Shown here: piece by piece, positions 1,300-62,338 of the stretch
How the letters are laid out: the number at the start of each line of letters is the position of its first letter
Position numbering within the stretch: position 1 is the stretch's first letter
DNA from: Geodermatophilus siccatus
GTDB lineage: Bacteria > Actinomycetota > Actinomycetes > Mycobacteriales > Geodermatophilaceae
Length of the DNA: 64,000 nucleotides
Assembly: GCF_900103785.1 (NCBI RefSeq)
Contig: NZ_FNHE01000005.1
Span: 62,001-126,000, forward strand
Reading direction: 5' to 3'
Translations under genes and position numbers: made by a program
The notes under the pieces: generated by a model
What the model was told of the DNA's origin: nothing
The model's database searches: none
Seen by the model: the letters and a program-made list of their open reading frames with translations, nothing else

Positions 1300-1968
1300 T
1301 CAGCCGGGGGGGACCACGGCCAGGTCGGACGGGAAGGTCAGCCGGGCGCCGGTCACCGCCTGCAGGGCGTCGGGCGTGACGCCGGGCGCCACCTCCCGGA
1401 CGACGAAGCCCTCGGGGCCGACGTCGAGGACGGCCAGGTCGGTGTAGACCCGGTCCACGACGGCCGCGGCGGTCAGCGGGTAGGTGCAGTGCGCCAGCAG
1501 CTTCGGGCGGCCGTCGCGCGTGGTGTGCGTGGTCACGACGAGGACCCGCTTCGCACCCACGGCGAGGTCCATGGCCCCGCCGACGGCCGGCGGCAACGCG
1601 GCCTCGTCGGTGGCCCAGTTGGCCAGGTCGCCGGTCTCGGACACCTGGAAGGCGCCGAGCACGCTGACGTCGAGGTGCCCGCCGCGCATCATCACGAACG
1701 CGTCGGTGTGGTGGAAGAACGAGCCGCCGGGCAGCAGGGTCACCGGCTGCTTGCCGGCGTTGATCAGCTCCGGGTCCTCCTCGCCGGGCGTCGGTGCCGG
1801 TCCCATCCCGAGGATGCCGTTCTCGCTGTGGTAGACGATCTCCTTGTCCGGCCCCACCACGTCGGCGACGAGCGTGGGCAGGCCGATCCCGAGGTTGACG
1901 TAGGAGCCGTCGGGGATGTCGCGGGCGACCCGGCGGGCGACGTCCGTCGGTGACAGCGGGCGGATCAC
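1300..1968 (-). CDS. scoB: 3-oxoacid CoA-transferase, subunit B
   Basis: Beta subunit (222 aa) of a family I CoA transferase (SCOT/PcaJ/AtoA type), which moves CoA between acyl donors and acids through a glutamyl-CoA intermediate. The glycine-rich NLGIGLPT is at residues 25-32, and the SENG motif at 48-51 holds the expected catalytic Glu (Glu49). The start is GTG with AGAGGA upstream. It pairs with scoA, with a 73-nt gap formed by an R1 repeat. Context (carboxylate transporter, TPP enzyme) suggests activation of an imported or derived oxoacid; succinyl-CoA or acetyl-CoA as donor is inference. pcaJ or atoA are alternative names. Confidence 0.9.
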   Translation of the reverse strand: MIRPLSPTDVARRVARDIPDGSYVNLGIGLPTLVADVVGPDKEIVYHSENGILGMGPAPTPGEEDPELINAGKQPVTLLPGGSFFHHTDAFVMMRGGHLDVSVLGAFQVSETGDLANWATDEAALPPAVGGAMDLAVGAKRVLVVTTHTTRDGRPKLLAHCTYPLTAAAVVDRVYTDLAVLDVGPEGFVVREVAPGVTPDALQAVTGARLTFPSDLAVVPPG

Positions 1969-2041
1969 GATCCGTCCTCTCCGGCGCTCGTCGGTCCCGT
2001 GCCGGGGGATGCCGTGCCCCCGCGCGCCCTCGCGAGCTCGG
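1969..2041 (-). repeat. R1 junction element, copy scoA-scoB
   Basis: The gap between the scoA stop and the scoB start is exactly 73 nt (GTGA to GTGA period 77 bp), as in four other junctions of this window. It contains the GAGCTCGCGA core, the middle part with GGGGCACGGC, and the CGACGAGCGCCGG segment before the scoB ribosome binding site. The hairpin next to the stop is degraded here (GTGACC against GGGCGC). Confidence 0.75.
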
Positions 2042-2707
2042 TCACGGAGCCACCTCCACCACGCGGTCGACGAAGATGCCGGGCGTCACGACGGCCTCGG
2101 GGTCGAGCTCCCCCAGCTCGACGAACTCCCGCACCTGGACGACGGTCAGCGCGGCCGCCGTCGCCATCGTCGGACCGAAGTTGCGGGCCGCGGTGCGGTA
2201 GACGAGGTTGCCCCAGCGGTCGGCGCGGTGCGCCTTGATGAGCGCGACGTCCGCGGGCAGGGGCCGCTCGAAGACCTGGCGGCGGCCGTCGAGGACCCGG
2301 ACCTCCTTGCCCTCCGCGAGCAGCGAGTCCGCGCCGGTCGGTGTGAAGAAGCCGCCGAGTCCGGCGCCGGCCGCGCGCATCCGCTCGCTGAGGGTGCCCT
2401 GGGGGACGAGCTCCAGCTCGATCTCGCCGGCCCGCCAGAACTGCTCGAACCACACCGAGCCGGCCGAGCGCGGGTAGGAGCAGATGATCCGGCGGACGCG
2501 GCGCTCGCGGATCAGCGCCGCGATGTCGGTCTCCCCGCTGCCGGCGTTGTTGGTCACCACCGTGAGGTCCCGGGCCCCCTGCTCCAGCAGGGCGTGCACC
2601 AGCTCCACCGGGACGCCGGAGTTGCCGAAGCCGCCGACGAGCACGGTCGCGCCGTCGGCGACGTCCGCCACGGCCTCGGCGAGCGTGGCCACCCGCTTGT
2701 CGATCAC
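2042..2707 (-). CDS. scoA: 3-oxoacid CoA-transferase, subunit A
   Basis: Alpha subunit (221 aa) of the CoA transferase. The GGFGNSGVP motif near residue 25 is the family GGFG signature, and NNAGSGETD near 53 is also typical. The chosen start is the GTG at 2707, which overlaps the stop of the TPP enzyme by 4 nt (GTGA); the next residues IDKRV begin the usual family N-terminus. The upstream overlap and the R1 gap downstream show tight coupling with both neighbours. Substrate specificity cannot be read from sequence. Confidence 0.9.
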   Translation of the reverse strand: MIDKRVATLAEAVADVADGATVLVGGFGNSGVPVELVHALLEQGARDLTVVTNNAGSGETDIAALIRERRVRRIICSYPRSAGSVWFEQFWRAGEIELELVPQGTLSERMRAAGAGLGGFFTPTGADSLLAEGKEVRVLDGRRQVFERPLPADVALIKAHRADRWGNLVYRTAARNFGPTMATAAALTVVQVREFVELGELDPEAVVTPGIFVDRVVEVAP

Positions 2708-4398
2708 GGCGCCGCCTGCCGGCGCCGGTACCAGCGCGGCGAGGTGGACGGCGGCGGGGTGAGCGCCGCCCGGACCACCAGGACGTCCGGTCCCTGGGCG
2801 TCGAGGCTCGCCGCCAGTGCGGCGGCGAACTCCTCGCCGAAGCCGTCGACCGCGCGGGCCGGGACGCCGAACGACCGCGCGAGGGCGACGAAGTCCGGGG
2901 TGGTCAGGTCCACGCCCCGGGCCGGGACGCCGGAGTGCAGCTGGTCGAACCGCAGCATCCCGTAGCCGCCGTCGTCGACGAGGACGGTCGTGACCGGCAG
3001 CCGTTCCTGGGCGAGGGTGGCCAGCTCCCCGCAGGCGAACAGGAAGCCGCCGTCCCCCACCAGCGCCAGGGCCCGGCCCCTGCCCGCGGCGGCCGCGCCG
3101 ATCGCGGCGGGGAACGCGTAGCCGAGGGTCCCCCAGCCCAGCGCGTAGGCCAGCCGCCGCGGACCCGGCACGCGGGCGAAGGCGGCCGCCCAGTAGCCGG
3201 CGATGCACATGTCCGCGAGCAGCACCCCGGTCCGGTCCGACACCCGGTCGAGGGCGTCGAGCAGCCCCTCGGCCTGGGGCTCGTCCGCGCGCACCAGCGC
3301 CCGCACCTCCCCGGCCACCGCGTCCAGGGTGCTGCGGAGGGCGGGCAGACCGTCCCGCTGCGGCAGGCCGTCGAGCAGGGCGGCGAGCACGGCGGACACG
3401 TCGCCGGCCACGGTGACGTCGGCCGGGTAGTTCTTGCCGGCGTCGGCGGGGTCGACGTTGACGGCGAGCAGCGTCGGCGGGCGTGGCATCGCCCAGTTCT
3501 GGGTGTTCGTCCCGTCGAGGTCGCTGCCCAGGGAGACCACCAGGTCGGCCTCGTCCCACAGCCGGCCGACCGCGGGGACGTGCGGCGGGCCGGGCACCAG
3601 GCAGGGGTGGTCGGGCGGCAGCAGGCCGCGGCCGCCGAAGGTGGTGACCACCGGCGCGGCCAGGCGTTCGGCGAGCTCGCCGACGAGGTCGCCCGCTCCG
3701 GAGCGCAGCGCCCCGCCACCGGCCCACACCAGCGGGCGGCAGGCGCGGGCGAGCAGCTCGCGGGCGCGGGCCAGCTGGTCGCCGTCCACCGGCTGCTCGG
3801 GGTCGGGCGGCGCCGGCGCACGCCCGGGGCTGCCGGCCGGTGCGCCGAGGAGGTCGGTGGGGACCCCGAGGTAGACCGGTCCGGTGGCCGGCCGCAGGGC
3901 GGCCGAGCCGGCGCGGACGGTGTCCGCGTACAGGTCCCCGGGCGCCGCCGTCGCCACGGTGGCCTTGGTGACCGGGGCGAACATGGCGGCCTGGTCGCGG
4001 GTCTCGTGGAGCACGCCGCGGTACACGCCGGGACGCCGCAGTGTCGACGGGATGTCCGTGGCGACCACGAGCACCGGCGCCCCCGAGGCCATCGCCTCGC
4101 CCGTGGCGCCGAGCGTGTTCGCCGCACCCGGCCCCGTGGTCACCACGGCCACACCCAGCCGGCCCGTGGCGCGGGCGTACCCGTCGGCCGCGTACACGGC
4201 GGCCTGCTCGTGCCGGACCCCCACCACCCGGAGGCCCGCGGCGGCGGCGGCCTCCCAGACGGCGAGGTTGTGCACGCCGGGCAACCCGAACACCGTCTCC
4301 ACGCCGAGGTCCCGCAGGCCCGCGACCAGGGAGTCCGCGCCCGTCCCCGATGCCGGGCCGCCCGCTCCGGCCCAGGTCGCCTCAGCCGCCGACGACAT
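2704..4398 (-). CDS. thiamine-diphosphate enzyme of the acetolactate synthase/benzoylformate decarboxylase family
   Basis: A 564-residue enzyme with the three-domain layout of the family. The N-terminal PYR domain carries the catalytic Glu (VRHEQAAVYAADGYARATG, near residue 64), a central domain follows, and the C-terminal PP domain has GDGGFLFACGELATLAQE. The usual NN of the metal-binding motif is replaced by DD (VLVDDGGYG), seen in some non-biosynthetic members. No small regulatory subunit gene is adjacent, so branched-chain amino acid synthesis is unlikely. Between transporter and CoA transferase genes, decarboxylation or carboligation of a 2-oxoacid is plausible (inference). The ATG overlaps the preceding tctC by 17 nt. 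Confidence 0.85.
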   Translation of the reverse strand: MSSAAEATWAGAGGPASGTGADSLVAGLRDLGVETVFGLPGVHNLAVWEAAAAAGLRVVGVRHEQAAVYAADGYARATGRLGVAVVTTGPGAANTLGATGEAMASGAPVLVVATDIPSTLRRPGVYRGVLHETRDQAAMFAPVTKATVATAAPGDLYADTVRAGSAALRPATGPVYLGVPTDLLGAPAGSPGRAPAPPDPEQPVDGDQLARARELLARACRPLVWAGGGALRSGAGDLVGELAERLAAPVVTTFGGRGLLPPDHPCLVPGPPHVPAVGRLWDEADLVVSLGSDLDGTNTQNWAMPRPPTLLAVNVDPADAGKNYPADVTVAGDVSAVLAALLDGLPQRDGLPALRSTLDAVAGEVRALVRADEPQAEGLLDALDRVSDRTGVLLADMCIAGYWAAAFARVPGPRRLAYALGWGTLGYAFPAAIGAAAAGRGRALALVGDGGFLFACGELATLAQERLPVTTVLVDDGGYGMLRFDQLHSGVPARGVDLTTPDFVALARSFGVPARAVDGFGEEFAAALAASLDAQGPDVLVVRAALTPPPSTSPRWYRRRQAAP

Positions 4399-5347
4399 CG
4401 CGGAAGGTCTCCTCCGTCTCGGTGAACAGCCCGGCCAGGTCCGCGCTGCCCAGGAACTCCTCCGGCACGTACCGCGGGTCCAGGGCCTCGACGACGGCCT
4501 CGTCCTCGCTCGCGCTGCGCAGAGCGCCCTCGAGCGTCGAGACGACCTCGTCCGGCGTCTCCGCGGGCGCGATGACGCCGAACGTCGCCGTGCTCTGGGT
4601 CAGCTCCGGGTAGCCCAGCTCGACGAAGGTCGGCGCGTCGGCGTAGGGCAGCCGCTCCTCGGTGCCGACGGCCAGCAGCCGCAGCTCACCGGACTCGATC
4701 GCCGGCAGCACGTCCTGCGAGAGGTTCACGAAGCCGGCGGCGACGTTGCCGCCCAGCAGCGCGGTCTGCACCTCGGCGTTGCCCTCGAAGGGCACGACGG
4801 TCAGCGGCACGTCGTGGAGCTCGGTGATCCGCCGGGTCTCCGCCGCGTGGGTGTTGGTGGCTCCGGGGGTCCCGACGGTGACGGCCTGGGGGTCCTGCCG
4901 TGCCGCCTCGAACAGCGACTCCAGGTCCTGGTGCGGGGAGCCGGCCGGGACGACGATGCCGGAGGGCACCTGGGTGACCACGCCGATCGGGGCGAAGTCC
5001 TCGCGGGTGTAGCCGACGTCGTTGGCCAGGTAGTTGAGCACCGCGGTGGGCAGGGCCGTCATCGACAGCGTGTGGCCGTCGGGCTGCGACCCGATGAGCT
5101 CGGTGTACGCGGTGGCGCCGGACGCCCCGGGCAGGTTCTCGACGACGACCGGCCGGCCGAGCTCGCCCTCCAGGTGTGCGCCGAGCGCCCGCGCCGCGAT
5201 GTCGGTCGGGCCGCCGGCGGTGTAGGGCACCAGCAGGCGGATGTCCTCCGAGGGGTAGTCGGCGGCGACGGACGCGGGGTCCTCGGCGCACCCGGAGAGG
5301 GCGGCGGCGGTGACCAGCAGGGCGGCGAGGGGGCGCAGGGGTCTCAT
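4382..5347 (-). CDS. tctC: tripartite tricarboxylate transporter substrate-binding lipoprotein (TctC/Bug family), copy 2
   Basis: A 321-residue lipoprotein with lipobox LSGC (Cys20). Family motifs are IRLLVPYTAGGPTD, VVVENLPGASG and GNAEVQTALLGGNVAA. The ATG at 5347 overlaps the tctA stop in an ATGA, so this is the copy directly coupled to the transporter and the best candidate for the primary receptor. It resembles the copies at 295 and 8509 but differs in ligand-pocket loops, for example a TNTHAAE segment where the others have STPQGIE or TTSQAME. A longer upstream reading frame exists but lies inside tctA and lacks a signal peptide. Confidence 0.93.
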   Translation of the reverse strand: MRPLRPLAALLVTAAALSGCAEDPASVAADYPSEDIRLLVPYTAGGPTDIAARALGAHLEGELGRPVVVENLPGASGATAYTELIGSQPDGHTLSMTALPTAVLNYLANDVGYTREDFAPIGVVTQVPSGIVVPAGSPHQDLESLFEAARQDPQAVTVGTPGATNTHAAETRRITELHDVPLTVVPFEGNAEVQTALLGGNVAAGFVNLSQDVLPAIESGELRLLAVGTEERLPYADAPTFVELGYPELTQSTATFGVIAPAETPDEVVSTLEGALRSASEDEAVVEALDPRYVPEEFLGSADLAGLFTETEETFRDVVGG

Positions 5348-6948
5348 CGTTCTCCAGGGGCGGACGGGACGTCGGTGTCGACGCTGTCGGAGGTGCGGCG
5401 GGTGTCGCGCCCGGGCGTCGGTGCCGTGCCGAGGTCGGCCTCGCCCTCGGGTTCGACGTGCCGGAAGGCGGCACGCCGCCGCCGGGCCATGACGAGGCTG
5501 AGGACCACCACCGCGGCCATGACGGCCAGCAGGCCGCCGGACAGGGGGCGGGTCACGAAGACGTCGAGGCTGCCGCCGGACAGCAGCATCGACTGCCGGA
5601 ACGCCCGCTCCATGATCGAGCCGAGCACGAAGGCGAGGACCAGCGGACCGGGCTCGAAGCCGGTCTTCTTCATCAGCCAGCCGATGACGCCGAAGACCAG
5701 CACGACCCACATGTCGAAGGAGTCGTTGTTGACCGAGAAGACGCCGGCCATGGTCACCAGCAGCGCGAAGGCGGCGAGGACGCCGGCCCGCACCCGGAGC
5801 AGCTGCACGAAGACCCCGACCAGCGGGATGTTCAGGACCAGCAGCATCACGTTCCCGACGACCATCGAGGCGATCACGCCCCAGAAGATCTCCGGCTCCT
5901 CGCTGATCAGCTGGGGTCCCGGGGTCACCCCCTGGATCAGCAGGGCGCCGAAGATGAGCGCCAGCACCACGTTGGCCGGGATGCCGAGGGTCAGCAGCGG
6001 GATGAACGCCGAGGTGGACGACGCGTTGTTCGCCGTCTCGGGCCCGGCCACGCCCTCGATGGCGCCCCTGCCGAAGCGGCTGGGGTCCTTGGCGCGGCGC
6101 TTCTCCAGCGCGTAGGAGGCCAGCGAGGAGATCACCCCTCCGCCGCCGGGCAGCACCCCGATGACGAAGCCGAGCACCGAGCCGCGGGCGATGGCCCCGG
6201 AGGAGTCCCGGAGGTCCTGCCGCGTGGGCCAGATGTGCCTGATCCTGCGGGTGACCGCCTGCACCTTGTCGGTGCGTTCGAGGCTGTGCAGGATCTCGCC
6301 CACCCCGAACAGGCCCATGGCCACCGCGACGAAGTCCAGCCCGTCGAAGAGGGCGACCGAGCCGAACGTGAACCGGGTGGTGCCGGTGATGGGGTCCTGC
6401 CCCACGGTGGCCAGCAGCAGGCCCAGCGCCGCCATCGACAGGCTCTTCAGCGGCGACCCGCTGCCGAGGTAGGTGACCAGCAGGATGCCCAGGGCGGTCA
6501 GCGCGACGTACTCCGGCGGGCCGAAGGAGACCGCCAGGTCGGCCAGCGGCGGCGCGAGCAGCATCAGGCCGAGGACGGACAGGATCCCGCCGACGAACGA
6601 GCCGATGGCGGCGATGCCCAGCGCCGGCCCGGCCCGGCCCTGCCGAGCCATCTGGTAGCCGTCGAAGGTGGTGACGACCGAGGCCGCCTCGCCCGGCAGT
6701 CGCAGCAGCACCGAGGTGATCGTCCCGCCGTACATCGAGCCGTAGTAGATGCCGGCCAGCAGGATCACCGCGGTCGCCGGCTCGATGGTGTAGGTCAGCG
6801 GCAGCAGCAGCGCGATCGTGGCGGTGGGGCCCAGACCGGGCAGCACGCCGATGACGGTGCCGATGAGCACGCCGGCGAAGACGTAGAGCAGGTTGACCGG
6901 GTCGAGGGCGACCGCGAAGCCCTGGACGATGCCGTCGGAGATCCCCAC
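5344..6948 (-). CDS. tctA: tripartite tricarboxylate transporter, large membrane subunit TctA
   Basis: A 534-residue integral membrane protein with about 11-12 predicted helices. It forms the transport path and works as an ion-coupled symporter with TctB and a TctC receptor. Signature stretches are IGTVIGVLPGLGPTATIALL near residue 30, YGSMYGGTITSVLLRLPGEA near 72, and a second similar half including VLPGGGGVIS near 270. The start is GTG at 6948, one nucleotide after the tctB stop. The C-terminal tail after about residue 495 is hydrophilic and low complexity. It is the only TctA in the window, although three TctC receptors are present. Confidence 0.95.
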   Translation of the reverse strand: MGISDGIVQGFAVALDPVNLLYVFAGVLIGTVIGVLPGLGPTATIALLLPLTYTIEPATAVILLAGIYYGSMYGGTITSVLLRLPGEAASVVTTFDGYQMARQGRAGPALGIAAIGSFVGGILSVLGLMLLAPPLADLAVSFGPPEYVALTALGILLVTYLGSGSPLKSLSMAALGLLLATVGQDPITGTTRFTFGSVALFDGLDFVAVAMGLFGVGEILHSLERTDKVQAVTRRIRHIWPTRQDLRDSSGAIARGSVLGFVIGVLPGGGGVISSLASYALEKRRAKDPSRFGRGAIEGVAGPETANNASSTSAFIPLLTLGIPANVVLALIFGALLIQGVTPGPQLISEEPEIFWGVIASMVVGNVMLLVLNIPLVGVFVQLLRVRAGVLAAFALLVTMAGVFSVNNDSFDMWVVLVFGVIGWLMKKTGFEPGPLVLAFVLGSIMERAFRQSMLLSGGSLDVFVTRPLSGGLLAVMAAVVVLSLVMARRRRAAFRHVEPEGEADLGTAPTPGRDTRRTSDSVDTDVPSAPGER

Positions 6949-6949
6949 G

Positions 6950-7450
6950 TCAGCCCCCCAGCAGCTGGTCGACCGGGCCCGCGGGGAACGGCACGCCGAG
7001 GACGACGACGAAGACCAGGTGGAGGACGATCGCGCCCGCCACGGCGAGGACGAGGGCCATCCGCCAGGACTCGCCGCCCAGGAAGCGCAGCCACGCGAAC
7101 AGCAGCAGGAACGCCGAGACGACGAAGCCGATCGTCTGGAACAGGACGATGAAGAGCGCCAGGCCGGCCAGGCCCGCGACGATGCGCGCCGTCCCGGCCG
7201 TCCAGGGCTCGTAGTCCTCCGCCGGGTCGAGGAACAGCAGCACGACCGACGTGGCGATCAGGAGCCCGGCCACGATGGTCGGCCAGAGACCGGGGCCGGG
7301 CGCGGTGAGCTCGCCGAGTCCCATGTCCCGGCCCACGAGCACGGCGCCCACCCCCAGCGCCAGGAGCAGCAGCGGGGCGAGCCGGCGCAGCTCGGACCGG
7401 GCCGACCGGGGGTGTCGCGCGGGCGCCGGTGCTGGAGGAGACGCGGACAT
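6950..7450 (-). CDS. tctB: tripartite tricarboxylate transporter, small membrane subunit TctB
   Basis: A 166-residue protein with about four transmembrane helices: two after a proline/alanine-rich N-terminal tail (LAPLLLLALGVGAVLVG, then LWPTIVAGLLIATSVVLLF) and two long ones in the second half. This matches the small TctB subunit in size and layout. The ATG at 7450 is preceded by GAGGAACCC and is preferred over an upstream start that would overlap the promoter. It is the first gene of the operon and is divergent from the LysR gene. Confidence 0.88.
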   Translation of the reverse strand: MSASPPAPAPARHPRSARSELRRLAPLLLLALGVGAVLVGRDMGLGELTAPGPGLWPTIVAGLLIATSVVLLFLDPAEDYEPWTAGTARIVAGLAGLALFIVLFQTIGFVVSAFLLLFAWLRFLGGESWRMALVLAVAGAIVLHLVFVVVLGVPFPAGPVDQLLGG

Positions 7451-7487
7451 GGGTTCCTCGTCGGGTCGCGGCCGGGTGTGACGCCCG

Positions 7488-7518
7488 ACACTACGAGCGG
7501 GCATTGTTCGTGGTCCAA
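7488..7518 (-). promoter_or_regulatory. probable promoter of the tct/sco operon
   Basis: On the minus strand TTGGAC (7518-7513) and TAGTGT (7493-7488) are 19 nt apart, followed by about 40 nt to the tctB ATG. The -35 lies inside the LysR-type box at 7503-7519. Confidence 0.4.
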
Positions 7519-7519
7519 T
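7503..7519. promoter_or_regulatory. LysR-type T-N11-A box in the divergent tctB/lysR promoter
   Basis: ATTG and CAAT arms form ATTG-TTCGTGGTC-CAAT, which fits the T-N11-A rule for LysR-family binding sites. It sits in an AT-richer patch between the regulator and the operon. A second small dyad, ATTCCGAAT, adjoins it at 7518-7526. Likely bound by the LysR protein encoded at 7570. Confidence 0.5.
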
Positions 7520-7569
7520 TCCGAATCGGGACGCCGTTCATAACGCGTCTGCATCAATGGGGAGGAGCC

Positions 7570-8484: not shown

Positions 8485-8508
8485 CCGGCACCCGGACGCC
8501 ATCCGCGC

Positions 8509-9495: not shown

Positions 9496-9604
9496 GCGTG
9501 CCTCCACGGGGTGCGCTCGGGCCGGCGGCGGGTGGCGCCGTCGCCCCGGAGCCTGGTGTGCCGGTCGCCCGCATGTCATCCGGAGCGGCGAACCGTCATG
9601 AACC

Positions 9605-9620
9605 TGTGACCGTCGTCACG
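9605..9620. promoter_or_regulatory. CRP/GlxR-like site between tctC copy 3 and malQ
   Basis: TGTGA-CCGTCG-TCACG matches TGTGA-N6-TCACA in nine of ten fixed positions. It lies about 110 nt upstream of the tctC start and 85 nt upstream of the malQ start, in their shared 209-nt divergent region. Carbon-source control by a cAMP-type regulator is an inference. Confidence 0.45.
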
Positions 9621-9704
9621 CGACGCCGTCGGAGGGGGACGGGGAGAGCGGCACCACGCCCGGTGTGCCGTGTGGGCGGCGGGCGGGCTGGGGAGTATCG
9701 GGGC

Positions 9705-11597: not shown

Positions 11598-11612
11598 TCC
11601 GGGTCCGCGTCC

Positions 11613-11641
11613 GGCGCGGTCCCCGGTCCGGGGGCCGCGCC
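11613..11641. terminator. bidirectional terminator hairpin between malQ and the nuclease gene
   Basis: GGCGCGG pairs with CCGCGCC, then CCCC with GGGG around a short GGTCC loop. The stem lies in the 64-nt space between two converging genes and could serve both. Confidence 0.6.
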
Positions 11642-11661
11642 CGACGCGTCCGGGGCTCGAC

Positions 11662-29656: not shown

Positions 29657-31822
<2,166 letters not shown>

Positions 31823-31895
31823 GAACCCTCCTCGCTGGCGTACGTCGGCTCCGTGCGCTCGGCTGCTGTGCCCCTGCGTGAGCTCGCCGGCTCGC
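31823..31895 (-). repeat. R1 junction element, copy ribE-ribBA
   Basis: 73 nt between the ribE stop and ribBA start. The stop-side hairpin is perfect (GTGAGC-GAGCCGGCGA-GCTCAC). Middle GGGGCACAGC and the CCAGCGAGGAGG ribosome binding site are present. Confidence 0.85.
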
Positions 31896-32549
31896 TCACG
31901 AGCGTGCTCCCAACAGGCGTTCCACGTACTTGGCGATCACGTCGACCTCCAGGTTGACCGGGCTCCCGGGAGGGACGGCACCCAGCGTGGTCTCGCGCAG
32001 GGTGGTGGGGATCAGGCTGACCTCCAACCACGGCTCGGGGTCGTCCGCGGCGCTCACGGCGCTCACGGTCAGGGAGACGCCGTCCACGGTGATCGAGCCC
32101 TTCTCGACCACGTAGCGCGCCAGCTCCGGCGGCAGCGCGACCCGCACGACCTCCCAGTGCTCGCCGGGGGTGCGGGTGACGACGGTGCCGACACCGTCGA
32201 CGTGGCCCTGCACCAGGTGCCCGCCGAGCCGGGTGTGCGGGGTGACCGCGCGCTCCAGGTTGACCGGGTCGCCGGCACCGAGGGCGCCGAGGCTGCTGCG
32301 GCGGAGGGTCTCGGCCATCACGTCGGTGGTCCACTCCTCGGCTGTGCCGTCGCCCCCCGGGCCCGTACCAGCGAACCCGGTGACGGTGAGGCAGACCCCG
32401 TTGACGGCGATCGAGTCGCCCAGCGCCACGCCCTCGAGGGCCTTGCGCGCCCGGATGCGCAGCCGGGCGGCGTCCGCCTCCCGACCCACCCCACCGGACT
32501 CCTCGCGGGCGAGCAGGACGCCGACCTCCTCGACGATGCCGGTGAACAC
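31896..32549 (-). CDS. ribE: riboflavin synthase, alpha chain
   Basis: A 217-residue enzyme that dismutates two lumazines to riboflavin. Two tandem lumazine-binding barrels begin [10 protein letters not shown] and (after residue 115) [11 protein letters not shown]. Each contains the typical [12 protein letters not shown] or [12 protein letters not shown] motif. The GTG at 32549 gives the standard (M)FTGIVEE start; GGAGGG lies 8 nt upstream, and the ribD stop is 2 nt before. The C-terminus ends inside the R1 element. Confidence 0.96.
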
Positions 32550-38195: not shown

Positions 38196-39578
38196 TCAGC
38201 GGGTGCGGCGCAGCAGTGCCATGAACATCGCGTCGGTGCCGTGCCGGTGCGGCCACAGCTGGCCATAGGACCCGCGGGCGATGCCGGGCACCTCCGGGAA
38301 CAGCGGCGCGACCGGCAGCACCTCGACGTCGTCCCGGCCGGCCGCGGCGTCGACCACGGCGACGGTCTCGTCGGTGTGCGGCGAGCAGGTCACGTAGGCG
38401 ACCACCCCGCCGGGGCGCACCGAGGCCAGCGCACCGTCGAGCAGCGCCGTCTGCAGGTCCACCAGCGGCGGGACGTCGTCCGCGGTGCGTCGCCAGCGCA
38501 CCTCGGGGCGGCGGCGCAGCGCTCCCAGGCCGGTGCACGGCGCGTCGAGCAGCACGCGGTCGAAGGACCCGGGCGACCACGGCGGCGTCCGCCCGTCGGC
38601 GACCACCACCTCGACGTCGTCCTCGTCGCGCAGGGCGCGGCGGACCAGCTCGGCGCGGTGCGGCGCGCGGTCGGCGGCGGTGAGCCGCACGCCCTCGGGC
38701 CGGACGGCGGCGAGCAGCCCGGCCTTGCCGCCGGGGCCGGCGCACACGTCGAGCCAGGCGGTGTCCGGACCCTCCAGCGGCGCGCGGGTCAGCAGCAGAG
38801 CGGCCAGCTGGCTGCCCTCGTCCTGCACCGCGGCCCGCCCCTCGCGCACCGACGGGACGCGCGCCGGGTCCCCACCACCCAGCCGGACGGCGTACGGCGA
38901 CCACCGACCGGGCTGCCCGCCGGCCTCGGCCACCAGCTGGTCGCGGGGCACCCGCCGGGCGACCAGGTGCACCTCGGGCGCGGCGTCGTCGGCCAGCAGC
39001 GCGGGCTCCACCTCGGCCTCGTCGCCGAGCGCGTCGCGCCAGGCCTCGACGATCCAGCGCGGGTGGTCGGTGGCCAGCGCCAGCCGCTGGTCGCCGTCCC
39101 CGTCGAGGCGCTCGATCCAGGCCGCGCGGTCCCCGCCCGCGGCGACCTTGCGCAGCACCGCGTTGACCAGCCCGGAGGCGCCGGTGCCGACGATCGCCCG
39201 GGTGAGCGCCACGGTGGTGTCGACGGCGGCGTGTGCCGGCACCCGCAGGTCCAGCAGCTGGTGGGCGCCCAGGCGCAGCAGGTCGAGCACCCGCGGGTCG
39301 AGCTCGGCCAGCGGCCGGGAGACCAGCGGAGCCAGGACCGCGTCGAGCGTGCCGGTGGCGCGCAGGGTGCCGTAGGCCAGCTGGGTGGCGAAGGCGGCGT
39401 CGCGCTCACCGAGGTCGGCGGCGCGCTCGCGCAGCAGCTGGGGCAGCAGCAGGTTGGCGTAGGCGTCGCGGCTGCTGACGCCGTCGAGGACGTCGAAGGC
39501 GGTCAGCCGCGCGCCGTCGAGCACCGGGCGGGAACGACGGGACGGCGGACGCCGGTCGGCGCGCCGGGGAGCGCTCAC
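38196..39578 (-). CDS. rsmB: 16S rRNA m5C967 methyltransferase
   Basis: A 460-residue enzyme. The N-terminal NusB-like domain (25-165) is followed by a Rossmann methyltransferase: WLDVCAGPGGKAGLLA (SAM motif I), DAPCTGLGALRRRPEVRWRR, and the catalytic Cys in VAYVTCSPHTDE. It methylates C967 of 16S rRNA with SAM. GTG start at 39578, its ribosome binding site supplied by an R1 element. It ends the def-fmt-rsmB group; the next gene downstream converges. Confidence 0.95.
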   Translation of the reverse strand: MSAPRRADRRPPSRRSRPVLDGARLTAFDVLDGVSSRDAYANLLLPQLLRERAADLGERDAAFATQLAYGTLRATGTLDAVLAPLVSRPLAELDPRVLDLLRLGAHQLLDLRVPAHAAVDTTVALTRAIVGTGASGLVNAVLRKVAAGGDRAAWIERLDGDGDQRLALATDHPRWIVEAWRDALGDEAEVEPALLADDAAPEVHLVARRVPRDQLVAEAGGQPGRWSPYAVRLGGGDPARVPSVREGRAAVQDEGSQLAALLLTRAPLEGPDTAWLDVCAGPGGKAGLLAAVRPEGVRLTAADRAPHRAELVRRALRDEDDVEVVVADGRTPPWSPGSFDRVLLDAPCTGLGALRRRPEVRWRRTADDVPPLVDLQTALLDGALASVRPGGVVAYVTCSPHTDETVAVVDAAAGRDDVEVLPVAPLFPEVPGIARGSYGQLWPHRHGTDAMFMALLRRTR

Positions 39579-39651
39579 GAGACCTCCTCGCCGGCGCTCG
39601 TCGCCCCCGCGAGCGGCGCTGCTGTGCTCATCGGTGAGCTCGCGAGCTCGC
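39579..39651 (-). repeat. R1 junction element, copy fmt-rsmB (clearest copy)
   Basis: 73 nt between the fmt stop and rsmB start. The 14-mer GCTCACGAGACCTC (plus strand) flanks it as a direct repeat at 39573-39586 and 39650-39663, 77 bp apart. The stop-side hairpin is perfect (GTGAGC-GAGCTCGCGA-GCTCAC), and CCGGCGAGGAGG is the rsmB ribosome binding site. Confidence 0.9.
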
Positions 39652-40590
39652 TCACGAGACCTCGCCCCCCAGCCGCTCGCCCGGCGCCGGCCGCGCCCCG
39701 CGCGCCCAGTCCGGCGCGGGCAGCATCCGCTTGCCGGCCGGCTGCACGTCGCCGAGCCGGACCGCGCCGCGCCCGGTGCCGACCAGCACGCCGGTCGGCC
39801 CCACCGACAGCTCGCCGTCCGCCAGCCCCAGGGACGTCGGCAGCGGCTCGACCGGCCCCAGCCGCAGCCGGTCGCCGCGCCACGTCGTCCAGGCCCCGGG
39901 CGCAGGGGTGACCCCTCGGACCCGCCGGTCGACGACGTGGGCCGGCAGCGACCAGTCGACGCGGGCGTCGGCCGGCTCGATGCGCGGCGCGAGACTGATC
40001 CCCTCGGTCGGCTGCGGCCGGGGCTCCAGCGTGCCGGCCGCGATGCCGTCGAGGGTGGTCCGCAGCAGCCGGGCGCCGCTGATCGACAGGCGGCCCAGCA
40101 GGTCGCCGGCGGTGTCGCGCGGGTCGATCGGCTCGGTGACCACGCCGTAGACCGGTCCGGTGTCCAGGCCCGCCTCCAGCCGGAAGGTCGAGGCGCCGGT
40201 GACCTCGTCGCCGGCCATGATCGCGTGCTGCACCGGCGCGGCGCCCCGCCAGGCCGGCAGCAGCGAGAAGTGCAGGTTGACCCAGCCGTGCCGCGGCAGG
40301 GCGAGCGCGGCCTGCGGCACGAGGGCGCCGTAGGCGACGACCGGCGCGCTGTCGACGGCGAGCTCGGTGAGCTGCTCGAGGAACTCCGGCTCGCGCGGCG
40401 AGCGGGGCTGCAGCACGGGGACGCCGGCGGCGTCGGCCCGCTCGGCGACCGGCGAGCGACTCACCGTGCGGCCGCGGCCGGAGCGGGCGTCGGGGCGGGT
40501 GAGGACGGCGACGACCTCGTGGTCGGAGGCCAGCAGCAGTTCCAGCGAGGGGACGGCGACATCGGGCGTCCCGGCGAAGAGGAGCCTCAG
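39652..40590 (-). CDS. fmt: methionyl-tRNA formyltransferase, probable CTG start
   Basis: Formylates initiator Met-tRNA with 10-formyl-THF; 312 aa. The N-terminal [36 protein letters not shown] (Asn/His active site) and LDTGPVYG are diagnostic; the C-terminal OB domain is at 210-300. The family begins at M-R-L-x-FAGTP, and here that codon is CTG, overlapping the def stop in CTGA with GGAGGT 9 nt upstream. In-frame GTG codons further upstream lie inside def and would add a non-family tail. The C-terminus EVS comes from R1 flanking sequence. Confidence 0.93.

Positions 40591-50356: not shown

Positions 50357-50360
<4 letters not shown>
48990..50360 (-). CDS. pyrD: dihydroorotate dehydrogenase, unusually long form
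   Basis: A 456-residue FMN enzyme in the pyr operon. The core has [46 protein letters not shown] and [13 protein letters not shown]. About 100 residues precede the barrel ([20 protein letters not shown]), longer than usual class 1 or 2 enzymes, and [20 protein letters not shown] is unlike classical class 2. Position and the SCPN motif make the assignment sound; class, electron acceptor and catalytic base are not clear. GTG at 50360 overlapping the carB stop. Confidence 0.85.
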
Positions 50361-53686
<3,326 letters not shown>

Positions 53687-53688
53687 GA

Positions 53689-53751
53689 TCAGGCCTCCTG
53701 TCCGTCACGTCGGCCGCTGACGTCGTGCGCGTACCGCTGCACGTGTCGCAT
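53689..53751 (-). CDS. possible 20-residue coupling peptide between carA and carB
   Basis: [20 protein letters not shown]. Its ATG overlaps the carA stop (TGATG), and its own TGA is 2 nt before the carB GTG, with the carB AGGAGG inside its last codons. This layout would carry ribosomes from carA to carB. The peptide itself may be meaningless. No independent evidence of translation. Confidence 0.35.
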
Positions 53752-54923: not shown

Positions 54924-56221
54924 TTCTGAGCCTTTCCGTCGAGCACGGTGGGGACGCCCCGCAGGAACGTCGCGACCACTCGGCCGGGCAGCTCCCGACC
55001 GGCGTAGGGGCTGTTGCGGCTGCGGCTGGCCAGCGCGGCGGGGTCGACGACCGCGCGCGCTCCCGGGTCCAGCAGCAGCAGGTTGGCCGGCTCGCCCGGG
55101 GCCAGCGGGCGGCCGTGTGCCTCGAGACCACGGCCGTCGAGCCGGCCGATGGCCGCCGGGCGGGTCGACATCCGGTCGGCGACGCCGCGCCAGTCGAGCC
55201 GGCCGGTCTCCAGCATCGTCGCGACGACCACCGACAGCGCCTGCTCCAGGCCCAGCATCCCGGGCCGGGCGTGCGCCCACTCGGTCTCCTTGTCCTCGAC
55301 CGCGTGCGGCGCGTGGTCGGTGGCCACCGCGTCGATCACGCCCTCGGCCAGCCCGGCGCGCAGCGCCTCGACGTCGGCGTCGGTGCGCAACGGCGGGTTG
55401 ACCTTGAAGACCGGGTCGTAGCCCTCGGCGCACTCGTCGGTGAGCAGCAGGTGGTGCGGGGTGACCTCGGCGGTGACCTGCACCCCTCGGGACTTCGCCC
55501 AGCGGAGGATCTCCACCGAGCCCGCGGTCGAGACGTGGCAGACGTGCAGCCGGGCGCCGACGTGGTCGGCGAGCAGCACGTCGCGGGCGATGATCGCCTC
55601 CTCGGCGGCGGCCGGCCAGCCGGTCAGCCCGAGGCGGGCGGAGCGGTCGCCCTCGTGCATCTGCGCGCCGACGGTGAGCCGCGGCTCCTCGGCGTGCTGG
55701 GCGACCACGCCGTCGAGCGCCTTGACGTACTCCAGCGCCCGGCGCATCAGGGCGGGGTCGGCGACGCAGTGGCCGTCGTCGGAGAAGACGCGCACCCGCG
55801 CGGCGGAGTCGGCCATCGCACCGAGCTCGGCCAGCCGCTCCCCCCTCAGCCCCACGGTCACCGCGCCGACGGGGACGACGTCCACCAGGCCGGCCTCCTG
55901 GCCCAGGCGCCACACCTGCTCGACGACGCCGGCGGTGTCGGCGACCGGGTCGGTGTTGGCCATGGCGTGCACCGCGGTGTAGCCGCCCAGCGCGGCGGCG
56001 CGGCTGCCGGTCTCGACGGTCTCGGCGTCCTCCCGGCCGGGCTCGCGCAGATGGGTGTGCAGGTCGACCAGGCCGGGCAGCGCGACCAGCCCGGCGGCGT
56101 CGACGACGTCGGCGCCGGGGACCGACAGCGACGCGCCGATCGCCGCGATCCGGCCGTCCTCCACCAGGATGTCGGCGGCGTCCTCGCCGTAGGGGCGGGC
56201 GCCCGTGATCAGGGTGCTCAT
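54920..56221 (-). CDS. pyrC: dihydroorotase
   Basis: A 433-residue amidohydrolase of the type I group. The metal-binding [10 protein letters not shown] is near residue 52, followed by [27 protein letters not shown] and [13 protein letters not shown] (catalytic Asp). It closes carbamoyl aspartate to dihydroorotate. ATG at 56221 with AGGGGA upstream. It overlaps carA by 4 nt. Confidence 0.97.
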
Positions 56222-56258
56222 GCCGCGTCCCCTCGCTCCCTGGCGCTCGCTGCGATGC
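56222..56258 (-). repeat. short R1 derivative, pyrB-pyrC junction
   Basis: 37-nt gap (GTGA stop to start 41 bp). Only the right part of R1 remains (GCAGCGAGCGCCAGGGAG), as if about 36 bp, including the stop-side hairpin, had been lost. Confidence 0.5.
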
Positions 56259-57793
<1,535 letters not shown>

Positions 57794-57822
57794 TCGTTAA
57801 AGGAGTGGTCGGACCGGGACCG

Positions 57823-57828
57823 ACGGTA
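57823..57828 (-). promoter_or_regulatory. probable pyr operon -10 box
   Basis: TACCGT on the minus strand, 60 nt before the pyrR ATG; a leader of about 53 nt would contain the PyrR loop and one further small hairpin at 57808-57824. Confidence 0.4.
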
Positions 57829-57928
57829 CTGCACGCTGCGATGTGACCCGCGACGCGCCGGGGTGGGCGTGATCGGGTCCCGTGTGACCCGGAGGAGTGT
57901 CCCGGTGTCCTTGGACCCGCTCGACCAG

Positions 57929-57934
57929 TACGCT
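57929..57934 (+). promoter_or_regulatory. probable bldD -10 box
   Basis: TACGCT, 46 nt before the bldD ATG, with GTGTCC (57904-57909) 19 nt upstream as a possible -35. Confidence 0.35.
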
Positions 57935-57980
57935 CCGTGACGACAACCCGCCCCCGACGACGGACAGTGAGCAGGAAGCG

Positions 57981-58532
57981 ATGAGCACCGACTACTCACG
58001 GGCCCTCGGTGCCCGGCTCCGCGCCATCCGCAACCAGCAGGGCCTCTCGCTCCAGGGAGTCGAGGACAAGTCCCACGGCCGCTGGAAGGCAGTGGTCGTG
58101 GGCTCCTACGAGCGCGGCGACCGCGCGGTGACCGTGCAGCGGCTCTCCGAGCTGGCGGTCTTCTACGGGGTCCCGGTCTCCGAGCTGCTGCCCGACCCGC
58201 GGCCCAGCTCGGCGGTCACCTCGACGACGAAGATCGTGCTGAACCTCGAGTCGCTGGGCTCGCTGCCTGCGGACGAGGCCGGCCCGCTGGCCCGGTACGC
58301 CTCGACCATCCAGGCGCAGCGCCACGACTACAACGGCAAGGTCCTCTCCATCCGCGCCGAGGACCTCAAGTCGCTGGCGATCATCTACGACATGAGCCCC
58401 GACGAGCTGACCAGCCGGCTCATCGAGTGGGGCGTCCTCTCCCCCGGCATGGAGAGCGTCGTCGGCTTCGGCGGCGACGAGGACGAGGACGAGGTCAACC
58501 CGAACTGGGAGCGCCGCCGCACCCCGCGCTGA
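57981..58532 (+). CDS. bldD: BldD, developmental transcription factor
   Basis: A 183-residue regulator. The N-terminal XRE HTH (residues 8-72: [34 protein letters not shown]) is followed by the C-terminal domain that dimerises through cyclic di-GMP in Streptomyces. The signature RGD-x8-RxxD appears as RHD at 114-116 and RAED at 125-128, so positions match, but Gly is replaced by His. The tail is acidic (GGDEDEDEV). ATG at 57981 with AGGAAG upstream. Divergent from the pyr operon; followed by a very strong terminator. Confidence 0.95.
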
Positions 58533-58538
58533 GCACCG

Positions 58539-58583
58539 AACGCCGAGGACCCACTCCGACGATCGGAGTGGGCCCTCGGCGTT
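58539..58583 (+). terminator. strong terminator after bldD
   Basis: Arms AACGCCGAGG and CCTCGGCGTT, then CCCACTCCGA and TCGGAGTGGG around a CGA loop: 20 bp paired with one mismatch, 6 nt past the stop. It can also stop nusB transcription. Confidence 0.88.
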
Positions 58584-58585
58584 CT

Positions 58586-58641
58586 GGCCCCGTCCCGGGG
58601 CTCGCCGCGAGCGGGCGAGCGGTGCGGAGGACGGGGTCCTC
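58586..58641 (-). repeat. R2 hairpin repeat (copy A) after nusB
   Basis: Outer arms GGCCCCGTCC (58586-58595) and GGACGGGGTCC (58629-58639), inner arms GCTCGCC/GGCGAGC. Ends at the nusB stop codon. Confidence 0.8.
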
Positions 58642-59049
58642 TCAGCTGGTCGGGACCTCGGCGTCGAGGATCGCGCCCAGGACGCCGTTGACGTAGGACG
58701 GCGAGTCGTCGGTCGACAGCGACCGGGCGAGCTCGACGGCCTCGTCGATGACGACCGGGTCGGGCACGTCGTCGACCCACAGCAGCTCGAACACCGCCAT
58801 GCGCAGGATCGCGCGGTCGACGTCGGGCAGCCGGTCGATCGACCAGCCGTGCGCGTGCCGGTCGATCAGCTCGTCGATGCGGTCGGCGTGCTCGGCCACC
58901 CCCTCGACCAGCCGGACGGCGTGGTCGGGGATGGGCGGCGAGGCGAGCGCCACCCGCTCGCGGAGCAGCTCCAGCGGGTCGCTGCCTCGGACGTCGGCCT
59001 CGTAGAGGACGTCGACGGCGCGCTTGCGCGCCTTGCTTCGGGCAGCCAT
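58642..59049 (-). CDS. nusB: transcription antitermination factor NusB
   Basis: A 135-residue all-helical protein that binds boxA RNA with NusE. Conserved RSKARKRAVDVLYEADVRG at the N-terminus (RNA-binding Arg), WSIDRLPDVDRAILRMAVFE in the middle, and PVVIDEAVELARSL. ATG at 59049, 10 nt after efp. Confidence 0.96.
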   Translation of the reverse strand: MAARSKARKRAVDVLYEADVRGSDPLELLRERVALASPPIPDHAVRLVEGVAEHADRIDELIDRHAHGWSIDRLPDVDRAILRMAVFELLWVDDVPDPVVIDEAVELARSLSTDDSPSYVNGVLGAILDAEVPTS

Positions 59050-59059
59050 GCGAGCGGCG

Positions 59060-59620
59060 TCAGTTGGCCCGGCCGAGGTACCGGCCGTCGCGGGTGTCGA
59101 CCTTGAGCCTGTCGCCGGTGTTGACGAACAGCGGGACCTGGATCTGCGCGCCGGTCTCCAGGGTGGCCGGCTTGGTGCCGCCGGTGGAGCGGTCGCCCTG
59201 CAGGCCCGGGTCGGTGTGCTGCACGACCAGCTCCAGGGTCACCGGGAGCTCGACGTAGAGGGGGGTGCCCTCGTGGACGGCGACCACGACCTCGGTGTTC
59301 TCCAGCAGGTAGTCCGCGCCACCGCCGACGGTCTCGGCGGGGACGTGGATCTGGTCGTAGGTCTCGCCGTCCATGAAGACGAAGTCGGTGCCGTCCTTGT
59401 ACAGGTACGTCATGCTCCGCTTGTCGACGGTGGCGGTGTCGACCTTGGTGCCGGCGTTGAAGGTCCTGTCGACGACCTTGCCCGAGAGCACGTTCTTCAG
59501 CGTGGTGCGGACGAACGCGCCGCCCTTGCCCGGCTTGACGTGCTGGAACTCGGTGACGGTCCAGAGCTGGCCGTCGAGGTTGAGGACCATGCCGTTCTTG
59601 AGGTCGTTGGTGGTAGCCAT
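59060..59620 (-). CDS. efp: translation elongation factor P
   Basis: A 186-residue factor that relieves ribosome stalling at proline runs. Domain I has [20 protein letters not shown], with the loop Lys in PGKGGA, domain II starts near 65, and the C-terminus ends [18 protein letters not shown]. No EpmA/EpmB partner is near, as expected in Actinobacteria. ATG with 0-nt gap to pepQ. Confidence 0.97.
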
Positions 59621-60736
59621 CTAGAGGACCAGCAGTTCCTTGCTCGTGAGGGTCAACAACTCGGGCTCGTCGTCCGTGACGATCAGCGTGTCCTCGATCC
59701 GGACACCGCCGTGGCCGGGCAGGTAGACCCCCGGCTCCACGGTGACGGCCATGCCGGCGGCCAGCCTACCCGCGCCCAGCTGCCCGATGCCCGGCGCCTC
59801 GTGGATCTCCAGCCCCACCCCGTGGCCCAGGCCGTGGGTGAAGTGCTCGGCGTGACCGGCGGCGGCGATGACGTCGCGGGCGGCGGAGTCGACGGCCACC
59901 ACGTCGGCGCCCACGGCCAGCGCGGCCCGGCCCGCCGCCTGCGCGGCCGCGACGAGCCCGTAGACCTCGCGCTGCCAGTCCGCCGCCTCCCCGAGCACGA
60001 CCGTGCGGGTCATGTCGGAGTGGTACCCGTCGACGGTCGCGCCGAAGTCCAGCTTGAGGAAGTCGCCCGGCCGCAGCTCGGTGCTGTCGGGCCGGTGGTG
60101 CGGGATGGCGGAGTTCGCGCCGGTGGCCACGATCGTCTCGAAGGACGGCGCCTCGGCGCCCATCGACAGCATGCGGGCGTCGAGCTCGCGGCCGACCTGC
60201 CGCTCGGTGCGCCCGGGCCGCAGCGCGCCCTCGGCGGCCAGCTCGGCCAGCGCCGCGTCGGCGACCGCGCAGGCGCGGCGCAGCGCGTCGACCTCGTCGT
60301 CGTCCTTGACGGCGCGCAGCGCCTCCACGGCCCGCCGCACGCTGGTCAGCTCCGGCACCGTGCCGCCGGCGGCGGCGTCGGCGAGCACCGACTCCAGCGC
60401 GCGCAGCCCGTCGACGGTCAGGTGGTGGCTCTCGTAGCCGATGCGCCGGGCGGTCGGGCCACCTGATCGAGGCAGCACCGCCTCACGGGCGAGGGCGGAG
60501 ACGGTGGCGCGGTCGACCAGCAGCTCGACGTCGGGCACCTGGGTGCCGGCCTGGGTCGTGTAGCGGCCGTCGGTGCCGAAGACGTCGGCGCCGTCGGTGC
60601 GCAGCAGGAGCGCGCCGTTCGAGCCGGTGAAGCCGGTCAGGTACCGCACGTTGAGCAGCTCGGTCACCAGGACGGCGTCCAGACCGCGGTCGGCCGCCGT
60701 CGCCCGCAGCCGCTCCCTCCGCTCGGCGTACCTCAC
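59621..60736 (-). CDS. pepQ: M24-family aminopeptidase (Xaa-Pro peptidase)
   Basis: A 371-residue metallopeptidase. The N-terminal creatinase-like domain ([25 protein letters not shown]) precedes the pita-bread domain with metal ligands in [46 protein letters not shown] and GVRIEDT. Cleaves Xaa-Pro bonds, fitting its place next to efp. pepP is an alternative name. GTG overlapping the aroQ stop. Confidence 0.93.
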
Positions 60737-61167
60737 GAGACCCCCTGCGCGGCCAGCCAGCGCAGCGCCAGCACGTAGCCCTGCACGCCCAGCCCGGCGA
60801 TCACCCCGTCGGCGACCGCCGAGACGTAGGAGTGGTGCCGGAACTCCTCGCGCTTGTGGATGTTGCTGATGTGCACCTCGACCAGCGGGGCGGTCAGCAT
60901 CGCCAGCGCGTCGCGCAGCACCACCGAGGTGTGCGACCAGCCGCCCGGGTTGAGCACCACCGGGTCGCCGGCGTCAGCGGCGGCGTGCACCCAGCGCAGC
61001 AGCTCGCCCTCGTCGTCGGTCTGCCGGACCCGGACCTCCAGGCCCAGCTCGTCGCCCGTGGCCGCGATCAGCTCGACCAGCTCCGCGTGGGTCGTCGTCC
61101 CGTACTTCTCCGGCTCGCGCGTGCCGAGACGGCCGATGTTGGCGCCGTTGAACACCTGGACCGTCAC
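60733..61167 (-). CDS. aroQ: type II 3-dehydroquinate dehydratase
   Basis: Third step of the shikimate pathway; 144 aa. The lid loop [10 protein letters not shown] holds the catalytic Arg and Tyr. [17 protein letters not shown] and [20 protein letters not shown] supply the His and substrate residues. The usual NGPN at the N-terminus is NGAN here. GTG at 61167 with GAGGAGAC from an R1 element. Confidence 0.95.
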
Positions 61168-61240
61168 GTCGTCTCCTCGCTGGCGCTTGTCGTCGCCGTG
61201 CCGAAACGTGCCCCGTCCCTGCGTGACCTCGCGAGCCCGG
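61168..61240 (-). repeat. R1 junction element, copy aroB-aroQ
   Basis: 73 nt between the aroB stop and the aroQ start. The stop-side hairpin is GTGACC-GGGCTCGCGA-GGTCAC, a perfect stem in which one pair is changed on both sides relative to the ribE and fmt copies. Confidence 0.85.
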
Positions 61241-62338
61241 TCACGCGGGCACTCCTCCACCGACGGCCGCCCACGCGGCGTCGAGCCAGGCCTGGTCGGG
61301 GTCGGCGAGGATGCGCGGGTTGCCGATGCCGTCCAGGACGACGAACCGCAGCGAGGCGCCGCGGGCCTTCTTGTCCACCCGCATGACCGTCTGGATGCGC
61401 TCCCAGTCCCCGGTGTAGCGGGTCGGCAGCCCCATCGCGGCGACCAGGCGGGCGTGCCGGTCGACCTCGGCGCGGGTCAGCAGCCCCGCCTGGCCGGCCA
61501 GCTCGGCGGCGAACACCAGCCCGACGGCGACCGCCTCACCGTGCCGCCAGCCGAAGTCCTCCACCCGCTCGATGGCGTGGGCCAGCGTGTGCCCGTAGTT
61601 GAGGAACTCGCGCACGCCGGTGTCGTAGAGGTCCGCCCCCACCGCGTCGGCCTTGACCCGCACCGCGCGCTCGATGAGCTCCTCGGTGTCGCGGCGGCCG
61701 GTGGGGTCGGCCTCGAGCAGGTCGAGGACGGCGGGGTCGGCGATGAAGCCGCACTTGACCACCTCGGCCATCCCGGCGCGGAACTCCGCCTCGGGCAGCG
61801 CGGCGAGGACGTCGGTGTCGGCCAGCACGGCCACCGGCGGGTGGAACGCGCCGACGAGGTTCTTGCCCGCGCCGGTGTTGATGCCGGTCTTGCCGCCGAG
61901 CGCGGCGTCCACCATGCCCAGCACGCTGGTGGGCACCTGGACGACGCGCACGCCGCGGGTCCAGGTCGCGGCCACGAACCCGGCGAGGTCGGTGACCGCA
62001 CCCCCGCCCACGCCCACGACGGCGTCGGACCGGGTCAGCCCCAGCCGGCCCAACTCCTCCCACACGCCCGCGGCGACCGCGGCGGTCTTGGCCGCCTCCC
62101 CGTCGGGGACGACGACGGCCTCCGCGGCCACCCCGGCGGTCTGCAGCGTCTCGACCAGCCCGCCGGCCAGCCCGGCCAGCGGGGGCGCGTGGACGACGGC
62201 GGCGCGGGCGGTGCCGTCGAGCACGGTGCTGGTCAGGCTGCCCAGCTCGTGCCGGGCACCGGGCCCGATGACCACGTCGTAGGGCCGCTCGCCCGGGACC
62301 GTGACCCGCCTGCGCGTCGCCCGTCCGCTCCCGCTCAC
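61241..62338 (-). CDS. aroB: 3-dehydroquinate synthase
   Basis: Second shikimate step; 365 aa, NAD- and metal-dependent. Motifs are [40 protein letters not shown], the metal-binding EVVKCGFI (Glu), [12 protein letters not shown] and [14 protein letters not shown] at 62338 overlapping the aroK stop. Confidence 0.98.

Follow-up and report, generated by a model that had tools for sequence, protein, structure and literature searches.

Covariation between two internal pentamers and the terminal start pentamers in a 77-bp unit at stop/start overlaps of Geodermatophilus siccatus and other actinomycetes

Locus and unit organization

The window analyzed here is a stretch of 64,000 nucleotides of Geodermatophilus siccatus (contig NZ_FNHE01000005.1, positions 62,001 to 126,000), and it contains five gene junctions, all on the minus strand, at which a short unit lies between the stop codon of one gene and the start codon of the next. 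The genes concerned were identified by Pfam as AroB, AroQ, Fmt, RsmB, RibE, RibBA, RibH and two coenzyme A (CoA)-transferase subunits. The unit is 81 nt long from its first GTGA through its second, and the step from GTGA to GTGA is exactly 77 bp in each of the five junctions, as the original prediction had stated. Two pentamers inside the unit covary with the start pentamers at its two ends, and this covariation is described below together with the evidence that the unit was inserted into stop/start overlaps.

The first GTGA provides the GTG start codon, and the second the TGA stop codon, of a mini open reading frame (mini-ORF) of 26 codons, which overlaps the neighboring frame by 4 nt at both ends and leaves both neighboring genes intact. 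A few bases 5' of the downstream start the consensus carries GAGGAGG or a variant, in agreement with the earlier suggestion that the end of the unit supplies the downstream ribosome binding site. Internal stop codons are absent from 35/37 deduplicated 81-nt copies of G. siccatus and from 60/61 of other genomes, counts given without a chance expectation at 75% GC. The codon-position entropy of the mini-ORF is flat; because variability at third positions does not exceed that at the first two, the conserved feature is probably not the peptide, and a peptide function was judged unlikely. In six G. siccatus copies, L195, L025, L220, L217 and L225 (spacing 78) and L003 (spacing 81), a change in length brings the mini-ORF into the reading frame of the downstream gene, whose protein could thereby gain a new N-terminus.

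A scan of both strands of the window for DTGA-N73-DTGA, in which at least 80 open codons were required on either side, found the five junctions and no others. Under a stricter coding test covering spacings of 0 to 150 between closing and opening DTGA, the window gave a spacing of 0 in 15 cases, of 77 in five, and six values in one case each, and 77 was the most frequent non-zero DTGA spacing in 2.0 Mb of a relative (15 cases). The five gaps are homologous, with a mean column identity of 81%. The shared core that had been proposed held as similarity in sequence and not as an exact string, as GAGCTCGCGA occurs in two of the five gaps and variants of it in the remaining three. A shortened sixth copy, claimed at pyrB-pyrC, was not recovered by a hidden Markov model (HMM) search with E up to 10 of that junction, taken as 56120-56300 on a putative gene assignment; a short GTGAGC...GCAGCGAGCGCC resemblance seen there by eye may be an element remnant. 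No RNA family of Rfam matched the window at gathering scores.

Covariation of two internal pentamers with the ends

Removal of tandem and orthologous repeats reduced the 207 copies bounded by DTGA on either side to 143 (49 from G. siccatus and 94 from other genomes). The start pentamer is written DTGAN, with D1 and b5 at the left end and D2 and h5 at the right, where b5 and h5 are the bases that follow DTGA and h5, which closes the right pentamer, lies in the downstream host gene. Mutual information singled out two internal pentamers, guide 1 and guide 2. The last base of guide 1 forms a Watson-Crick pair with D1 in 135/143 copies and its first base with b5 in 138/143; for guide 2 the last base pairs with D2 in 128/143 and the first base with h5 of the host in 117/143. 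The observed count was reached in 0 of 2000 within-genus shuffles of partners for each of the four pairs, and partners shifted by 1 to 4 columns gave lower scores. The pair of b5 with the first base of guide 1 rests for its evidence mainly on the G. siccatus genome, where it is found in 46 of the 49 copies (C-G 25, G-C 21), and D1, D2, h5 and guide 2 were left free in the scan pattern with which further copies were fetched.

Copies with unlike ends indicate that each guide follows its own end. Where D1 differs from D2 (18 copies), pairing to the own end occurs 16 and 12 times, against 2 and 4 for the crossed arrangement, and where b5 differs from h5 (28 copies) it occurs 25 and 17 times, against 6 crossed.

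The two ends of the G. siccatus copies match each other beyond DTGA at the next base only (44/49, versus 23.8 in shuffles), and D matches between ends without excess (43/49 versus 41.6). The 94 other copies match at D in 82 (55.6 in shuffles) and at the base after DTGA in 71 (66.2), and at offsets -2 and -5 in 45 and 52 (25.0 and 34.0); the excess at these two offsets may come from genus make-up. A long target-site duplication was considered and rejected, as matches in G. siccatus exceed shuffles at the base after DTGA only. The 14-bp direct repeat reported at fmt-rsmB is present; since the bases upstream of DTGA match in the 49 copies no more than in shuffles, its extension beyond DTGA looks like chance.

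Empty sites in related genomes

Orthologous junctions were compared in 26 genomes of the genus, including that of G. siccatus. The fmt-rsmB junction is a plain 4-nt DTGA overlap in all 25 other genomes, which is strong evidence for insertion rather than loss. The filled ribE-ribBA junctions hold a step of 77 bp in six genomes and 65 in one, the filled ribBA-ribH junctions one of 77 in four, 80 in two and 62 in one, and each of the two junctions is an empty DTGA overlap in 19/26. In three genomes of Geodermatophilus, G015, G019 and G023, there are five, four and four RibBA-like matches, respectively (E up to 1e-60), and riboflavin genes may be multiplied in them.

A place on 2.0 Mb of G431, a close relative, could be assigned to 30 of the 76 G. 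siccatus copies: at 14 the flanks lie 73 to 163 nt apart, the element having been checked for at part of these, and 14 are empty, with two rows of one tandem site omitted. DTGA is present at 13 of the 14 empty sites. The aroB-aroQ junction of G431 likewise has a 77-nt gap with the element, and the gap at its CoA-transferase junction is 154 nt, twice 77. The original prediction that the unit enters GTGA overlaps and in doing so recreates a stop and a start is thus supported, the orthologous empty junctions being 4-nt DTGA overlaps. The positions of the window elements are listed in Table 1.

Table 1 Elements of the window and an example of the guides; the guide coordinates at fmt-rsmB were counted along the unit sequence
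Feature	Position	Strand	Remarks
CoA-transferase subunit junction element	1965..2045	-	T type, diverged
ribBA-ribH element	30438..30518	-	Junction occupied in 7/26 genus genomes
ribE-ribBA element	31819..31899	-	Junction occupied in 7/26 genus genomes
fmt-rsmB element	39575..39655	-	S type (GTGAG / CTCAC); own species only, among 26 genomes
Guide 2 example (CTCGC), fmt-rsmB	39609..39613	-	Outer bases pair with h5 and D2; right pentamer GTGAG 39574-39578
Guide 1 example (CTCAC), fmt-rsmB	39634..39638	-	Complements left pentamer GTGAG 39651-39655
aroB-aroQ element	61164..61244	-	GTGA, 73 nt, GTGA; 26-codon mini-ORF; T type (GTGAC / GTCAC)

Copy number and distribution

The G. siccatus genome (5.20 Mb, 36 contigs) gave 83 matches to a sequence model at E up to 0.01, fragments counted. 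Of the 76 distinct copies read in the fetched stretches, 66 begin and end with DTGA and 50 of those have a spacing of 77; several copies form tandem pairs at a distance of 77 bp. Matches occur in each of the 25 genus genomes searched, in numbers from 4 to 90. At E up to 1e-4 the same search found no match in 16 genomes from other genera, and the same model matched 22/394 genomes of a class sample; a model built from diverse copies matched, at E up to 1e-4, 134/298 genomes in 36 of the 76 genera of the order sampled.

A pattern scan of named genomes returned at least 112 stretches, and Pseudonocardia, Blastococcus, Modestobacter, Geodermatophilus, Nocardia, Rhodococcus, Catellatospora, Kutzneria, Amycolatopsis, Streptomyces and Microbispora are among the matches listed. 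In the first 80 of these stretches (87 matches) the length to the in-frame stop, which is 2 mod 3 by construction, is 77 in 54, 71 in 13, 74 in eight, 80 in four, and another value in eight. The 141 copies of other genomes with DTGA at both ends have a spacing of 77 in 91, 71 in 20, 74 in 12 and 80 in seven. In Catellatospora, loci such as L141, L144 and L147 hold units of 71 bp in which either end is often ATGA. Tandem arrays of four 77-bp units in Kutzneria sp. 744 (L123:2221-2522) and of seven at G733:C51:4873-5415 resemble the mycobacterial variable-number tandem repeat loci.

In a genus taken for Mycobacterium, weak and in many cases partial matches were found in 36/118 genomes at E up to 0.01, and seven of the loci inspected contain 65-bp units with a mini-ORF, at one locus in tandem. 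The left end of these units is the same as that of the family, and, judged by eye on unaligned units, they seem to obey the rule for D1 and D2. Locus L298 (genus g8) has 65-bp tandem units with a 22-codon mini-ORF beginning MSEACERIIG, a shorter version of this kind of element. Carriage by phages or plasmids was considered and rejected: one element pattern had no match in IMG/VR, two element stretches had none among plasmids, and one element had none among phages.

Possible site choice and upkeep of the pairing

The empty sites of the relative, assigned to S type and T type by hand from the G431 placement, have G after DTGA at 5/6 S-type and 0/7 T-type sites (Fisher 0.005) and C at 5/7 T-type and 1/6 S-type sites (p 0.10). 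In the three copies at these sites with b5 unlike h5 the host base of the relative equals h5. As the relative carries the base h5 and the type tracks that base, h5 is host-owned and older than the insertion, which favors site choice by the element.

Some orthologous filled junctions differ at this base. Among the seven filled ribE-ribBA orthologues, three of which were re-aligned, h5 (G or C) and guide 2 change together in what by eye is seemingly one insertion, and h5 and guide 2 likewise differ together, by eye, between the G. siccatus and G431 copies of L016. At L012 an S-type unit in G. siccatus and a T-type unit in G431 each match their own h5, and the two are perhaps separate insertions. 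At L010 h5 is C in G. siccatus and G in G431, where guide 2 begins with A, a mismatch seen by eye. Upkeep of the pairing after insertion is suggested by some of these junctions and not by one of them.

Interpretation and alternatives

We consider it probable, at roughly 0.6, that the unit is a short non-autonomous mobile element with the architecture of a mycobacterial interspersed repetitive unit (MIRU), whose guides choose the site by base pairing. Such an element would insert at the TGA-N of start codons, mainly in stop/start overlaps, and ribosomes would run from the upstream gene through the mini-ORF into the downstream gene, so that an insertion would be nearly silent. By base pairing within a protein complex, the guides would assist in selecting the site and in positioning it, T-type elements being directed to TGAC sites and S-type elements to TGAG sites; their role would be akin to that of the guide sequences of IS200/IS605, but with an enzyme different from Y1. 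A wider proposal, put forward tentatively and with somewhat less than even confidence, is that there is a pan-actinomycete class of non-autonomous elements which read the target with two pentamers against DTGAN, are moved in trans and are translationally silent in operons; the trans-acting mover would then come from a family of enzymes for which no connection with such elements has been made so far.

A number of observations weigh against the mobile-element reading. Non-tandem copies among the 50 G. siccatus copies of 81 nt differ by at least 8 nt, so movement has not been recent in that genome. Length variants are in frame in 7/16 cases in G. siccatus, without a clear reading-frame preference, and in 42/50 in other genomes, many of them with a lineage in common, and both flanks pass the coding test in 39/66 G. 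siccatus and 78/141 other copies. DTGA at both ends was an entry condition of the covariation set, passed by 66/76 G. siccatus and 141/155 other copies, and the pattern scan fixed b5 and the first base of guide 1 in most of the copies that it fetched. Folded as single-stranded DNA, the five copies of the window show no more stability than shuffles (z -0.52 to 1.51). The mismatch at L010 belongs here too, as does the result that Y1 transposase (PF01797) is found in 0/26 genus genomes, other movers not having been looked for. Finally, of the 13 empty sites at which the G. siccatus copies carry G at both ends, 5 are ATGA in G431, compared with 1 of 25 element-free overlaps where G. siccatus has G (Fisher 0.012), and D1 is A in 4/49 G. 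siccatus copies versus 101/309 overlaps in G431. It seems that D is supplied or converted by the element, which leaves TGA and the base after it as the only clear parts of the host target, a reading that is not firm, as several of the flanks behind it carry small local changes.

The main rival explanation places the pairing in the mRNA, where the guides would be anti-start sequences that close the start regions until a ribosome arrives from upstream, giving strict translational coupling, and where selection would maintain the pairing after insertion. We regard it as unlikely, at about one chance in four. The joint changes of guide 2 and h5 at ribE-ribBA and L016 speak for such a start lock, as does the agreement of D with the guide even where the relative carries another D, and the mean unpaired probability is 0.32 at the downstream start and 0.25 at the mini-ORF start, compared with 0.44 at the joined empty junction, a shorter sequence. 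The same L010 copy of G431 fails to match its h5 and so argues against it; overall folds are not unusually stable, and the effect of a matching flank is small, since exchange of the downstream flank for one with the other h5 changed accessibility to 0.351 from 0.320 (Wilcoxon p 0.064) and chimeras with the same and the other h5 differed at p 0.041. A start lock also offers no reason for the identity of b5, whose sole pairing partner is guide 1, with host h5 in 44/49 G. siccatus copies.

Movement by a Y1 HUH transposase, with the unit as a member of IS200/IS605 or of the repetitive extragenic palindromic (REP) sequences with their REP-associated tyrosine transposases (RAYT), is improbable. The pairing of guide and cleavage site, the fixed short insertion motif and the role of the +1 base are features of IS608 in the passages available of PMC5934647, yet PF01797 is missing from the 26 genus genomes while it matched 5 of 14 control genomes, Escherichia coli among them; by eye no hairpin follows the left guide, and D apparently comes from the element. 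That the gaps are merely ordinary conserved intergenic sequence, or alike by chance, can be practically dismissed in view of five unrelated junctions, the exact spacing, orthologous empty sites and tandem copies.

MIRUs are widely used for typing, and MIRU repeats serve the typing of tuberculosis strains, while the 77-base element described here is built alike; in the passages used, the spread of MIRUs is described merely as apparent mobility. If the two are of the same kind, spread could be tested in soil actinomycetes whose genomes hold 4 to 90 copies each and whose orthologous empty sites can be read. From the covariation follows a concrete and falsifiable rule on the sites permitted to the element; it also connects a mobile element with stop/start overlaps down to the individual base pair.

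Comparison with known systems

Statements on MIRUs are drawn from passages of PMC12548453, PMC4213456 and PMC2734929. These describe MIRUs as repeats of 40-100 bp at 41 places in one genome, with repeat length related to mRNA level at one locus (PMC2734929), and the senX3-regX3 units as 77 bp long and restricted to Mycobacterium leprae and the Mycobacterium tuberculosis complex (PMC4213456). The present elements resemble them in unit length (77 bp in 50/66 G. siccatus and 91/141 other copies with both DTGA), in tandem units (the G. siccatus pairs 77 bp apart and the four units of Kutzneria sp. 744), in mobility, as seen from empty sites in relatives, and, to judge from the sequence architecture, in what appears to be a small ORF with a 4-nt stop/start overlap. 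The likeness is one of architecture. The family differs in its occurrence in many actinomycete genera, as opposed to the narrow range given for senX3-regX3 (PMC4213456), and in the covariation of guides and start pentamers, which the MIRU descriptions used (PMC12548453, PMC4213456, PMC2734929) do not include.

With IS200/IS605, and IS608 in particular, in which guide pairing takes part in site choice according to the parts consulted of PMC5934647, the elements share short internal guides complementary to the site at each end and a fixed short insertion motif; as regards pairing of guide and cleavage site, the likeness is suggested by covariation alone. They differ in that the element has no transposase gene and the 26 genus genomes no Y1 family, to which the search for a parent element was limited, and in that the element ends keep stop/start overlaps and the right pentamer holds one host base. 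By eye, a CGAGC-loop-GCGAG motif lies near both ends, with the left guide after it and not before, and the folds are not unusual.

REP sequences with TnpA-REP (RAYT) are likewise short, present in many copies and located between genes, but the Y1 gene, of the same Pfam family as TnpA-REP, is absent from the 26 genus genomes, and the units described here have an open mini-ORF and a downstream frame that looks coding, in sense, in 57/66 G. siccatus and 108/141 other copies. Miniature inverted-repeat transposable elements are also short, non-autonomous and multicopy; the consensus ends here, judged by eye, are direct DTGA repeats and not terminal inverted repeats. The matches listed in the open-access literature hold no description of such elements outside mycobacteria. 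Set against those matches, as far as their text was available, what is new in the present elements is their breadth across the actinomycetes and the covariation of their guides.

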